A stretch of DNA of 64,000 nt from Candidatus Scalindua sp. (GTDB lineage Bacteria; Planctomycetota; Brocadiia; Brocadiales; Scalinduaceae): contig JAIQZU010000074.1 in the NCBI GenBank assembly GCA_021776915.1, forward strand, positions 1 through 64,000, written 5' to 3'. Shown here one piece after another: positions 7,704 through 49,703 of this stretch. The position numbers and the translations under genes were made by a program. The notes below the pieces were generated by a model, which was given only the letters and a program-made list of their open reading frames with translations, searched no databases and had not been told where the DNA came from. The first letter of the stretch is position 1. Each line of letters begins with the position of its first letter.

Positions 7704-7748
7704 GCTCTTTCAAGGAGGATTCCAGTTGGAGTCCTCTCGAAAGAGAGG
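7704..7748. repeat. Palindromic repeat, family 1 (copy a)
   Basis: An imperfect inverted repeat whose right arm contains CCTCTCGAAAGAGAGG, a six-base-pair hairpin with a GAAA loop, flanked by TGGAGT; the left arm is a degenerate copy. It lies between the convergent TPR and HEPN genes and may also act as a transcription barrier for both. Other copies are at 21538, 23035, 25555, 26836 and 49529. Confidence 0.8.
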
Positions 7749-17250: not shown

Positions 17251-17305
17251 GTGGGGCGTAAAGTCCTCGGCGCAGTTTGTCCGAGGATAATTATACGCCC
17301 CCTAC
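17251..17305. repeat. Palindrome GGGGCGTA...TACGCCCC with nested inner module
   Basis: Outer arms at 17253-17260 and 17294-17301 enclose GTCCTCGGCGC-AGTTT-GTCCGAGGA, itself an inverted repeat. The inner part closely matches the module found inside family 1 repeats at 23078, 25598 and 49545, but the outer arms differ. Confidence 0.75.
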
Positions 17306-21537: not shown

Positions 21538-21588
21538 TGGACTCCTTGCGAAAGCAAGGTCATGTTCCTCTCTTTCGAGAGGACTCCA
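21538..21588. repeat. Palindromic repeat, family 1 (copy b, short form)
   Basis: Two small hairpins, CCTTGCGAAAGCAAGG (21544-21559) and CCTCTCTTTCGAGAGG (21567-21582), flanked by TGGACTCC and GGACTCCA. It fills the gap between glcD copy 2 and glcF and overlaps the glcF ribosome binding site. Unlike copies c, d and f it lacks the inner module. Confidence 0.85.
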
Positions 21589-21591
21589 TTT

Positions 21592-22998
21592 CTAAATAAA
21601 CATCTTGCCGGGATTCATAATCCCCTTCGGATCAAAAAAGCCCTTAAATCTTTTCATAATTGCCAATTCTTTAGGTGAAATCTCTAACTCCATAAATTGA
21701 GACTTCTTATTTCCTATTCCGTGTTCGCCTGAAATAGTTCCCCCAACCGCGACTACTTCCCTCATAATCTTATTTACAATACTCTCCGCTAACGCCGCCT
21801 GGCCGGGATCGTCATTATACATTATGTTTACGTGTATATTGCCGTCTCCTATGTGTCCAAAGTTTGCGATATAAATTGTCTGGTGTTCGTTTATCTGATC
21901 AACCTTCTGCAATATTTCCTTTATCTTACTTCTGGGCACACAGATATCTTCGTTAATTTTGTGTGGAGCAATATTGTACAATGCGGGAGAAATCGAACGC
22001 CTTACAGCCCATATAGACTCCCTCTCCCTTGGTGTTTCCGCCACTTTAGTTTTAAAGGCTTTCTTTTCCTTACACGCATTCTCGACTACAGGCAATTCAT
22101 GGCTTATACTTTCCTCGGTCCCATCAATATCAATTAATAATAACGCTTTTACGTCCTCACCAATGGGCGCTTCGCCATATCCCCGTACGGCACTAATTGT
22201 CATCTGGTCCATAAATTCCAGTGTACGCGGTAAAATATTATTATCTATAATCAGATCAGCAGCATCAATAGCATCATCTCTGTCACTGAAATAAGCAGCC
22301 AGGGTTTCAATTTTCTTAGGTTTTGGAATAAGTTTCACAGTTATTCTGGTAAAGACCCCCAACGTTCCTTCAGAACCTATAAAAAGCCTGGTCAGGTCAT
22401 AGCCGGTAACACTCCTTAATGTCTTTCTGCCTGTGTTAATCACTGATCCATCCGAAAGGACTATCTCGAGAGCAAGTATATAATCCCGCGTCACTCCATA
22501 TTTCAACCCCGTTATCCCGCCTGCACATTCAGCAACGTTACCTCCAATAGTTGAAAATGCAGCACTCGAAGGGTCTGGTGGATAGAAGAGATCAAACTTT
22601 GCAATTTCGTCCTGAAAATGTTTTGTAACTACACCCGGTTCAACCGTTGCAACAAAATCCTCAGGACAGATCTCAATTATTCTGTTCATACTCTTTAAAT
22701 CAAGAACAATCCCACCCATAAGCGGCACTGCCCCACCGGTAAGCCCTGTACCCGCCCCCCTTGCATATATCGGTATTTCATATTTATTCGCAATCTTTAA
22801 TGTATTAGAAACATCGGATGTGCAGCCTGGCCTCACGACAATATCCGGAAGCGCCTTTTGCTTAGTGCCGTCATAAGAATAGCATATCCTATCTTCAATT
22901 GCCGACAGCACCTTTTCTCCTCCTAAAACCATGATTAGTTCATTGAGTACTTTCTGATGTTTCTTGCTTTCTGTTTTAGTTTTTTTAAAATGCTTCAT
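21592..22998 (-). CDS. glcD: FAD-linked 2-hydroxyacid dehydrogenase, GlcD-like, copy 2
   Basis: A 468-residue oxidase of the GlcD/lactate dehydrogenase family. The FAD-binding loop is GAGTGLTGGAVPLMGG and the C-terminal cap ends ISGEHGIG...NPGKMFI. The start at 22998 matches the paralogue's N-terminus; a longer frame to 23139 only adds 47 residues translated from repeat DNA. It is paired with glcF 58 bases downstream. The substrate may be glycolate, D-lactate or another D-2-hydroxyacid. Confidence 0.9.
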   Translation of the reverse strand: MKHFKKTKTESKKHQKVLNELIMVLGGEKVLSAIEDRICYSYDGTKQKALPDIVVRPGCTSDVSNTLKIANKYEIPIYARGAGTGLTGGAVPLMGGIVLDLKSMNRIIEICPEDFVATVEPGVVTKHFQDEIAKFDLFYPPDPSSAAFSTIGGNVAECAGGITGLKYGVTRDYILALEIVLSDGSVINTGRKTLRSVTGYDLTRLFIGSEGTLGVFTRITVKLIPKPKKIETLAAYFSDRDDAIDAADLIIDNNILPRTLEFMDQMTISAVRGYGEAPIGEDVKALLLIDIDGTEESISHELPVVENACKEKKAFKTKVAETPRERESIWAVRRSISPALYNIAPHKINEDICVPRSKIKEILQKVDQINEHQTIYIANFGHIGDGNIHVNIMYNDDPGQAALAESIVNKIMREVVAVGGTISGEHGIGNKKSQFMELEISPKELAIMKRFKGFFDPKGIMNPGKMFI

Positions 22999-23034
22999 TG
23001 CTTTACCTGCTTTATTCTGAACTGTATTCGATTT

Positions 23035-23138
23035 CCTCTCTTTCGAGAGGATTCCAGTTTTGGACTCCTTGCGAAAAGTCCTCGGCGCTTTTTGTCCGGG
23101 GAAGCAAGGTCGCTTTCCTCTCTTTCGAGAGGACTCCA
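23035..23138. repeat. Palindromic repeat, family 1 (copy c, long form)
   Basis: Hairpin CCTCTCTTTCGAGAGG, then a CCTTGC...GCAAGG hairpin whose GAAA loop is expanded by GTCCTCGGCGC-TTTTT-GTCCGGGG, then a second CCTCTCTTTCGAGAGG. It separates the two glcD paralogues. This is the most complete copy in the window. Confidence 0.85.
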
Positions 23139-23140
23139 TC

Positions 23141-24541
23141 TTAAATAAAAATCTTTCCCGGGTTCATAATGCCTTTCGGATCAAACATCTTCTTCAGGTC
23201 TTTCATTATTTCAATCTCATGAGGCGCAAGCTCTAATCCTATAAATTCAGCCTTCGCATCTCCAACACCATGCTCTGACGTGATAGTTCCACCGATCAAT
23301 ACCACTTCCTTTAATATTTGAGATACCAGTTTGTGGACAGATAAATCCATTTCCTTTCCGTCATTATAAATTACGTTGAGGTGGATATGGCCTTCGCCAA
23401 TATGTCCGAACGCCGCCACCTGTATTGAATATGTCTTGCCGAGTTCATAAACTTTCTTTAATACCTCTCTAACCTTACTTCTCGGGACACAAAAATCATC
23501 GTTGAACTTCATCGAAGCAATTTTAAAGAGGGATGGGGAAACAGATTTCCTGACATCCCATAATGCGTCCCTTTCATCATCTGTTTTTGCAATTGAAGTT
23601 TTCAATGCACTGTTTTCCCTGCAGAGAGCTTCTATCCTGGAAATGTCATTTGCTACATTCTTTTCATTCCCGTCTACATCAATAAGCAAGAATGCCCCGG
23701 CTTCTTCCGGAATCGTTTCTTCCGCAGACCCTCTCACAGCGCCAATGCATGTTTTGTCTACAAATTCCAGTGAGCGAGGGTGTAGATGGTTTTTTACTAT
23801 TATTGAGTCTGTGGCATTCAGGACACTGTCAATATCTTTAAAATAAGACATAACGGTTCCTATCTTTGCCGGTAATGGTAACAGTTTTAATGTTATTTTT
23901 GTCAACACACCCAACGTCCCTTCAGACCCGACAAAAAATCTGGTTAAGTCGTACCCGGCTACACTCCTGAGTGTTTTACTCCCAGTATTTATGACCGAAC
24001 CATCAGGCAAGACGATTTCCAGGGCAAGGACATAGTCCCTCGTTACCCCATATTTCATCCCAGTCATCCCTCCAGTACATTCTGCCACGTTTCCTCCAAT
24101 AGTTGAGAATCCTGCACTCCCCGGTTCAGGCGGGTAAAAAAGTCGATGTTTTGCCGCTTCGTCCTGCAAATCTTTTGTAACAACACCGGGTTCTACGGTT
24201 ACTGTCAGGTCTCTTGCATTTAACTCTACTATCCTGTTCATATTTTTCAGATCCAGAGCAATGCCGCCTTTTATGGGAACAGACCCACCAGAGAGACCGG
24301 TTCCTGCTCCCCGCGGACAAATAGGAATGTTATGTTGATTTGCAATTGATACAGTATTTGATACCTGTTCTGTTGAATGAGGCCTGATCACCAGATCAGG
24401 AATAGACTTTTCCTTTGTAGCGTCAAAGGAATAACAGACCCTCTCCTCAATGTTATCAAAAACATTCTCCCTGCCAATGGCATCACAAAGTTCCTCAAAT
24501 ACCTTTGCCTGGATTTTATTATTATGGGTCTCTTGTTTCAT
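23141..24541 (-). CDS. glcD: FAD-linked 2-hydroxyacid dehydrogenase, GlcD-like, copy 1
   Basis: A 466-residue paralogue of the next gene, the same family and length. It shows CPRGAGTGLSGGSVPIKGG and TSEHGVG...NPGKIFI. Tandem duplication is likely; divergence is high enough that the two may differ in substrate or act as a GlcD/GlcE-like pair. The ATG at 24541 is preferred to a TTG one codon earlier. It is the first gene of the glcD-glcD-glcF operon. Confidence 0.9.
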   Translation of the reverse strand: MKQETHNNKIQAKVFEELCDAIGRENVFDNIEERVCYSFDATKEKSIPDLVIRPHSTEQVSNTVSIANQHNIPICPRGAGTGLSGGSVPIKGGIALDLKNMNRIVELNARDLTVTVEPGVVTKDLQDEAAKHRLFYPPEPGSAGFSTIGGNVAECTGGMTGMKYGVTRDYVLALEIVLPDGSVINTGSKTLRSVAGYDLTRFFVGSEGTLGVLTKITLKLLPLPAKIGTVMSYFKDIDSVLNATDSIIVKNHLHPRSLEFVDKTCIGAVRGSAEETIPEEAGAFLLIDVDGNEKNVANDISRIEALCRENSALKTSIAKTDDERDALWDVRKSVSPSLFKIASMKFNDDFCVPRSKVREVLKKVYELGKTYSIQVAAFGHIGEGHIHLNVIYNDGKEMDLSVHKLVSQILKEVVLIGGTITSEHGVGDAKAEFIGLELAPHEIEIMKDLKKMFDPKGIMNPGKIFI

Positions 24542-24543
24542 CA

Positions 24544-24557
24544 ACCTATTTATAGGT
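24544..24557. promoter_or_regulatory. Inverted repeat ACCTAT-TT-ATAGGT at glcD leader
   Basis: A six-base inverted repeat immediately before the first glcD start codon, overlapping its weak ribosome site. It may be an operator or a translation-control hairpin. Confidence 0.3.
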
Positions 24558-25554: not shown

Positions 25555-25652
25555 CCTCTCTTTCGAGAGGATTCCAGCTCTGGACTCCTTGCGAAAAGTC
25601 CTCGGCGCTTTTTGTCCGGGGAAGCAAGGTCGTGTTCCTCTCTATTCGAGAA
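25555..25652. repeat. Palindromic repeat, family 1 (copy d, long form)
   Basis: Same order as copy c, including the inner GTCCTCGGCGC module, but the last hairpin is decayed (CCTCTCTATTCGAG). It lies between the convergent phosphoesterase and dprA genes. Confidence 0.8.
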
Positions 25653-26835: not shown

Positions 26836-26889
26836 CAGCCTCTCTTTCGAGAGGATTCCAACTCTGGAATCCTCTCGAAAGAGAGGCTG
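26836..26889. repeat. Palindromic repeat, family 1 (copy e), perfect 25-base arms
   Basis: Arms 26836-26860 and 26865-26889 are perfect inverted copies with a four-base loop. Each arm itself contains the CCTCTC/GAGAGG hairpin, so the locus can form one long cruciform or two small GAAA-type hairpins. It lies between aroB and dprA. Confidence 0.9.
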
Positions 26890-30972: not shown

Positions 30973-31005
30973 ACAACTAACCTGTCAGCATGGGTTTAAG
31001 TCGCC

Positions 31006-31089
31006 AGTCGCCTGAGGACGACCCTGTGGGTAGCTTCAGTATCCGCCATCGGCGGGAGGCGCCCCCTGGGGCTGCTACAAGATTCGACT
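31006..31089. repeat. Palindromic repeat, family 2, long form
   Basis: AGTCGCCTGAGGACGACCC...GTAGC pairs at its ends with GCTAC...CGACT. The centre holds a CCGCC/GGCGG hairpin and a GGCGCC-rich stretch absent from the copy at 36755. It lies between the SEC-C remnant and the ACT protein gene. Confidence 0.7.
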
Positions 31090-34056: not shown

Positions 34057-34090
34057 AAACTTTAGCTCACTTCACACTTTAGGCACTTTT
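34057..34090. repeat. Family 3 repeat (AAACTTTAGCTCACTTCA), single arm
   Basis: An A/T-rich element made of ACTTTAG and CACTT units, matching arms at 35748 and 39580. It lies between the radical SAM gene and the first DUF1538 gene. Confidence 0.6.
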
Positions 34091-35749: not shown

Positions 35750-35830
35750 AGTGAACTAAAGTGTAAAGTGACTAAAGTTATGGAACAAATGCAGTTTGAA
35801 CCGTTATTTTCTTTCCAACTTTAGTCACTT
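35748..35830. repeat. Family 3 repeat, inverted pair
   Basis: AAGTGACTAAAGTT (35766-35779) and AACTTTAGTCACTT (35817-35830) are perfect inverted copies with a 37-base loop, preceded by a further AAAGTGAACTAAAGT. It lies between DUF1538 gene 2 and the PII-like gene. Confidence 0.75.
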
Positions 35831-36737: not shown

Positions 36738-36754
36738 CGCCTATACAAGGAGCA

Positions 36755-36797
36755 AGTCGCCTGAGGACGACCCTGTGAGCAACTTACAGATTCGACT
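36755..36797. repeat. Palindromic repeat, family 2, short form
   Basis: Shares AGTCGCCTGAGGACGACCC and AGATTCGACT with the copy at 31006 but lacks its 40-base centre. It follows the CBS gene by 18 bases. Confidence 0.75.
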
Positions 36798-36861
36798 CAG
36801 TTGGGAGGCCAGGTGTAGGATTCCCGGCTGGTTCAGGTCCAATCTTCATGATTGAACCAGT

Positions 36862-36996
36862 TAGGACGTAAGGGCGTACCCGCCTGCCCGCCCGGCAATG
36901 CCGTTCGGACGGGTACCTATTCGGGCAGGTTGCCATCCCCGGACAAACTGCGTCGAGGACATTACGCCTCCTACTTTGTGGCTACTTTGAAATTCT
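36862..36996. repeat. Composite repeat with nested modules
   Basis: Starts GGACGTAAGGGCGTAC, contains CCGCCCGGCAATGCCG-type palindromes, and then TCCCCGGACAAACTGCGTCGAGGACA, which is the reverse complement of the inner module of family 1. It ends TACGCCTCCTAC and TACTTTGAAATTC, a tail shared with 46540-46575. Confidence 0.65.
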
Positions 36997-39534: not shown

Positions 39535-39907
39535 GCGTTTCTCCGTACTGCACTAATAACAAAGTGCCTAAAATGCCTAAAGTTTGAAGTGAGCTAAAGT
39601 TGTGGTAAAAAACAAATCTTTTATTTTTTAACTTTAGTCACTTCAAACTTGATTGCGTCTTTTCAGTAAAAGATTACGTAACTATTAAATTCTATTTTAT
39701 AAACAAGGGAGTCTATTTGGTATTACAAAAATATTTTTTCAGCCAGGCTTACTGTGCAAGTCCTTGTGAAGACGACATTTATTAACTGAACAGGTTTTTC
39801 ACTCTATAAAAAACTGGACAGTAGATTAAAAACTATTAATCTTTTCAGTCTTTGAACCGATAATAACTTAGGATTCTTTATACTTATAATAATAAAGACC
39901 ATAAATC
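39535..39907. other. Divergent promoter region with family 3 repeat
   Basis: 373 bases between the spermidine-synthase-like gene and the NtrC-type regulator. Apart from the inverted repeat at 39580-39650, the sequence is unique and AT-rich; no sigma-54 promoter pattern is seen. Confidence 0.6.
39580..39650. repeat. Family 3 repeat, long inverted pair
   Basis: Arms 39580-39601 and 39630-39650 (AAGTTTGAAGTG and CTAAAGTT units) pair over 21 bases with one unpaired base and a 28-base AT-rich loop. Confidence 0.8.
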
Positions 39908-49528: not shown

Positions 49529-49703
49529 CCGGACTCCTTGCGAAAAGTCCTCGGCGCTTTTTGTCCGGGGAAGCAAGGTCTCCTCCATTTCATGAGGAAT
49601 CCAGTTTGTCCATGCTACCCTAACCTGGCCAAGCCAGAACCAAAAAGGCCTTAGACACAAATTACATGAATTGGTGGCGGACCTCTCTTTCGAGAGGATT
49701 CCA
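49529..49703. repeat. Palindromic repeat, family 1 (copy f, dispersed parts)
   Basis: The expanded CCTTGC...GCAAGG unit with inner module (49533-49579), a variant hairpin CCTCCATTTCATGAGG, and 80 bases later the CCTCTCTTTCGAGAGG unit (49682-49697). It fills the gap between clpB and the flippase gene, where no gene is credible. Confidence 0.8.

Follow-up and report, generated by a model that had tools for sequence, protein, structure and literature searches.

A previously undescribed REP/REPIN family in Candidatus Scalindua and a second hairpin element nested in some of its loops

Palindromic repeats between the genes of the window

The window, a 64-kb stretch of a 3.79-Mb Candidatus Scalindua MAG (genome G000), carries two genes for FAD-linked oxidases, glcD2 and glcD1, separated by an array of short palindromes (Table 1). 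An ATG at 23139, within this array, opens the glcD2 frame (21592–23139), and gene prediction may therefore extend glcD2 by a spurious leader of 47 aa. Repeats are present at all six places at which the earlier note had located a palindromic family (7704, 21538, 23035, 25555, 26836 and 49529), all of them between open reading frames, and an additional half-copy lies at 49682–49702.

Each half-unit comprises a 5′ tag, TGGAnT, followed by a 6-bp stem and a C(GAAA)G loop. Searching the window with a stem-free pattern (GGANTCCNNNCGAAAGNNNGG, at most two mismatches) returned 10 half-units, compared with 0.22 in shuffled sequence, and 0 of 100 shuffles reached 10. Further copies in the genome had been proposed as a check on the family; the stem-free half-unit pattern with at most one mismatch finds 137 half-units genome-wide, as against 1 for the reversed pattern used as a control. 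The CCTTGC/GCAAGG hairpin described earlier retains its GAAA loop at 21539–21559 only, since at 23035, 25555 and 49529 the loop is split by a 27-nt insert. This insert is a second, nested element (C) that the earlier note had overlooked.

Other repeats also occur in the window. One family, AACTTTAGCTCACTTCA...AAGTGCCTAAAGT, is found at 34058–34089, 39570–39601, 35759–35789 and 39620–39650, and a similar repeat fills the glcD2/glcF gap in genomes G010, G012 and G013. Two 63-nt repeats (30998–31060 and 36747–36809) are 73% identical and contain GTCGCCTGAGGACGACCCTGTG.

Table 1. Repeats and neighbouring genes in the window
Feature	Position	Strand	Remark
REP half-unit, stem CCTCTC/GAGAGG, loop GAAA	7728–7748	+	degenerate inverted partner at ~7709–7723
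Isolated C element	17263–17287	+	within another palindrome, GGGGCGTA...TACGCCCC (GTAG-type REP)
REP half-unit, stem CCTTGC/GCAAGG	21539–21559	+	GAAA loop intact
REP half-unit	21567–21587	−	directly after glcD2 stop codon
glcD2, FAD-linked oxidase	21592–22998	−	right edge of the slot holding the RAYT in Ca. Scalindua arabica
REP half-unit	23035–23055	−	glcD1/glcD2 gap, glcD2-proximal
REP half-unit, TGGACT + CCTTGC/GCAAGG	23063–23111	+	loop split by 27-nt C; C absent from the orthologous copies of G002 and G008
C element, 27-nt nested hairpin	23076–23102 (core 23078–23102)	+	
REP half-unit	23117–23137	−	directly after glcD1 stop codon
glcD1, FAD-linked oxidase	23141–24544	−	left edge of the slot
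REP half-unit	25555–25575	−	part of second whole-composite copy, 95% identical to 23033–23140
C element core	25598–25622	+	nested in CCTTGC hairpin
Complete inverted doublet (REPIN)	26839–26886	.	48-nt near-perfect palindrome, 4-nt centre
Isolated C element	36936–36960	−	adjoins GTAGGAGGCGTA half-palindrome
C element core	49547–49571	+	in CCTTGC hairpin (49531–49580), followed by decayed REP (49582–49602)
REP half-unit	49682–49702	−	solitary

Stem pairing, loops and doublets

In a set of 24 distinct genotypes drawn from the window's own genome and its relatives, pairing extends to 95.8% of stem cells, compared with 82.5% after shuffling. The stem covariation score is 0.467 as against 0.190 when shuffled, and none of 500 shuffles reaches the observed value; the genotypes were collected with a pattern in which the loop and three of six stem pairs were invariant, so that only the other three pairs, left free, inform this test. 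Loop and pairing are kept while the stems change, which supports the modular palindromic family of the earlier note and the stem compensation on which it was to be judged. With the stem required and the loop left free, the loop is GAAA in 206 of 219 copies, GAGA in 5 and GGAA in 2, a count biased upward for GAAA because many of the loci were fetched with GAAA patterns. C-GAAA-G is indeed a GNRA tetraloop in RNA, as had been pointed out, but an RNA loop is unnecessary here, because the same motif also forms an extra-stable single-stranded DNA mini-hairpin (Hirao 1989, as cited in PMC4686876). Such a mini-hairpin suits the substrate of an HUH single-strand transposase.

The even spacing of the parts, likewise noted earlier, was borne out: −/+ doublets with a fixed 6 nt between the 21-mers account for 54 of the 73 adjacent pairs sampled. 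Paired copies mostly form inverted doublets around an invariant 4-nt centre, an arrangement known among REP elements as the REPIN. Folded as DNA, the 48-nt doublet reaches −25.5 kcal/mol (z −11.9). The commonest doublet centres, AATTCT and AATACT, place CT immediately ahead of one unit's GGA tag. TnpAREP proteins cut at a CT adjoining the REP (PMC8266576), and our guess is that this CT could be the cut site.

These structures could also reflect RNA elements under selection, such as 3′ mRNA stabilisers, processing sites or terminators at gene ends, whose spread is incidental. Several copies lie within a few nucleotides of stop codons, both strands fold as RNA, and the minor loops GAGA and GGAA are both GNRA. 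Such a role is nevertheless highly improbable as the explanation, given that the window contains 0 Rfam matches above the gathering threshold and that species lacking copies at orthologous sites retain the same gene order; an RNA effect could coexist with mobility. Intrinsic terminators were rejected as candidates: single units are followed by no T-run, and the region has 6 terminator-like sites compared with 4.9 in shuffles. The doublet at 26839 is one of the six terminator-consensus matches.

The glcD1/glcD2 slot and its RAYT transposase

In Ca. Scalindua arabica (G001), glcD1 and glcD2 are separated by a gene for a REP-associated tyrosine transposase (RAYT) of 175 aa, bracketed by the focal repeats in inverted orientation (+ upstream, − downstream). 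The protein passes the NCBIfam model NF047646 (103.5 bits, cut-off 80) and matches the TnpAREP structure 4er8 (E 3.5e-6). The window's glcD2 and glcD1 are the same genes, and 23035–23138 fills the RAYT slot. The gap is empty (16–22 nt) in G011, G012 and G015, and it holds one REP in G014, decayed REPs in G010, three REPs in G008 and four in G002 (all without C), three in G000 (the middle one with C), and the RAYT plus REPs in G001. The first unit of the array carries GGAGT and the last GGAAT in G000, G001, G002 and G008, with stems that differ and stay paired, as an array passed down by inheritance would show. Of 10 genomes compared at site 25553, only G000 and G001 carry the repeat, and the eight other species are free of it. 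The S. arabica glcD2 has lost its stop codon, and ~28 residues are read from REP sequence (L134 3900–4151).

Among the 49 short RAYT-like ORFs examined in the family, focal REPs lie within 450 nt (exact pattern) of the S. arabica gene alone, and 18 of the 49 have some other hairpin common to both flanks. A RAYT at locus L168 has one single-mismatch focal unit upstream, yet the repeat on both its sides is another one, TGGAGTGCATCGTCCGTGACGATGCG, that likewise starts with TGGAGT. A RAYT of the S. arabica type was found in only 1 of 17 family genomes, the nearest relative among them being 39% identical. Searches of the window's own genome did not reveal it, though at 95% completeness the gene may have been missed. 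That genome has ten Y1 transposase matches, none with a focal REP within 1.5 kb, and other REPs accompany several of its short RAYTs; the focal REPs are apparently orphaned there, without a cognate RAYT. Several other short RAYTs in the family have REP families of their own, many of them GTAG-tagged (L007–L010, L139, L147, L149 and L168), and the genomes of the family hold many coexisting REPtrons. A Y1 transposase of 324 aa, whose C-terminal region is DnaA-like, lies 4.7 kb beyond the window end (L005 889–1863, G000:C72), with no REP found near it, and similar genes of 290–340 aa recur in the family.

High copy number (137), the position of all window copies between ORFs, a short palindrome with a tag at one end, fixed-gap inverted doublets, compensatory stem changes and, in Ca. 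S. arabica, a RAYT lying between inverted copies of these REPs are all features of REP elements. The doublets, the covariation and the RAYT slot thus identify the repeats as a new family of a known class and not as an unnamed RNA element. Although the earlier note knew of no named family with such a make-up, it matches the REP/BIME/REPIN class with its RAYT. The repeats are a previously undescribed REP/REPIN family in the marine anammox genus Scalindua, and we found no prior description in the openly accessible literature on anammox and repetitive extragenic palindromes. They resemble the REPINs of PMC3116915 in their inverted doublets of constant spacing, intergenic location, compensatory changes, single-unit remnants and a RAYT adjoining a REP cluster, but differ in the 4-nt centre, the 48-nt total length, the TGGA tag and the lack of the RAYT in most carriers. 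With the GTAG/CGTC-tagged REPs treated in the accessible part of PMC3733652, whose listed carriers include Planctomycetes, they share high copy number, the occurrence of dimers and a palindrome of 20–40 nt marked at one end by a conserved tag. The tag of every unit found is TGGAnT, however, which fits neither the GTAG nor the CGTC super-family, and the focal family was not found in that part of the source. S. arabica resembles the RAYT/TnpAREP REPtrons of PMC2817692 and PMC8266576 in having a model-passing RAYT and inverted flanking REPs, but it differs in the extra-stable C-GAAA-G loop, and the activity of its RAYT is predicted.

Very probably, the repeats are non-autonomous mobile REPs, with the doublets as REPINs, spread by a RAYT that is likely the S. 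arabica one; the 175-aa protein of the glcD slot is most likely their cognate. This reading builds on copy number, doublet form, covariation, presence and absence at orthologous sites, and a RAYT flanked by REPs in one species, from which we infer that the S. arabica RAYT moved the focal REPs. By analogy with TnpAREP biochemistry, from which the cut-and-paste steps are taken, the RAYT, an HUH/Y1 transposase, would recognise tag and hairpin on single-stranded DNA, cut beside the REP and re-insert it, often just after stop codons, and single units would be remnants of doublets.

The slot array is also present in species without this RAYT, so the RAYT may have landed in a pre-existing array, and the RAYT is confined to one genome. 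The focal REPs could accordingly have been moved by a different transposase and the S. arabica RAYT have arrived in an old array. We consider this unlikely, as the hairpin repeats at other short RAYTs of these genomes are different ones, the focal REPs are the only recognisable repeats at the S. arabica RAYT, and RAYTs are described as non-self-mobile (PMC3116915).

The window's own genome has 108 exact half-unit copies, all 12 sampled congeners have between 1 and 47 apiece, and two sister genera have 23 and 118; a fourth genus (g4) has 0, and genomes outside the family show background only, with at most 1 match in any genome. Named records with the CCTCTC form belong to Candidatus Scalindua and to MAGs labelled Brocadiaceae or Planctomycetota, plus one stray. 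The latter is a single exact half-unit in the betaproteobacterium Solimicrobium silvestre (L250 2914–2935), isolated in an 8-kb stretch. E. coli REP/BIME sites bind gyrase, IHF and the like, according to work cited in PMC1525189, and the focal repeats might similarly be BIME-like recombination or protein-binding sites for chromosome organisation. A copy number that ranges from 1 to 118 among relatives, with none in g4, argues against an essential role, as does presence or absence at orthologous sites, and we give such a function hardly any credence.

The nested C element

C is a 27-nt hairpin that splits the REP loop, CGAA[AAGTCCTCGGCGCTTTTTGTCCGGGGA]AG, at 23035, 25555 and 49529. Its sequence, GTCCTCGGCGNNNTTTGTCCGGGGA, has 139 copies in the genome (at most two mismatches), compared with 0 for the reversed pattern, and comparison of the middle REP of the glcD slot with G002 and G008 reveals a clean 27-nt gain. 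The positions of C are fixed, whether in the loops of focal REPs, in those of GTAG-type REPs or in several other repeats, and each host repeat apparently carries it in a single orientation. Most of the family has C, and so does genus g4 within it (105 and 49 copies), which lacks the focal REP. Across 392 genomes sampled from the whole phylum, C was not found outside the family. Tandem 27-nt arrays of C exist as well, with six copies at L355 (G000:C76:9300–10000) 317–476. When the flanks of C are joined, 28 of 86 form a stem of at least 6 bp, as against about 5 expected. The remaining flanks lie in non-hairpin repeats or weaker stems, and the idea that C is always in hairpin loops was rejected. 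A search for a mobiliser revealed no enrichment of C near RAYTs and no RAYT associated with it; G011 has 25 copies of C and no detected Y1 transposase (94% complete).

Tentatively, C could be a gene-less mobile hairpin in its own right, entering single-stranded loops, chiefly those of REPs of several families, and its mobiliser may be a non-Y1 enzyme; this is a possibility to which we give somewhat less than even weight. If so, one miniature element parasitises another. IS1397, ISKpn1 and ISPsy8 (PMC1525189) are likewise second mobile elements lodged precisely inside REP units, but C differs from them in being a 27-nt gene-less hairpin that also occurs in non-REP repeats and in 27-nt tandem arrays. 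The nested C is the only surprising part of these repeats and the part worth following; if its movement were confirmed, it would be among the smallest known mobile units.

The focal repeats add a new REP family with a non-canonical tag to an environmentally important anammox genus. One gene boundary provides a natural series of empty slot, REP array, and REP array with RAYT, which is useful for asking what becomes of REPs after the loss of their RAYT.
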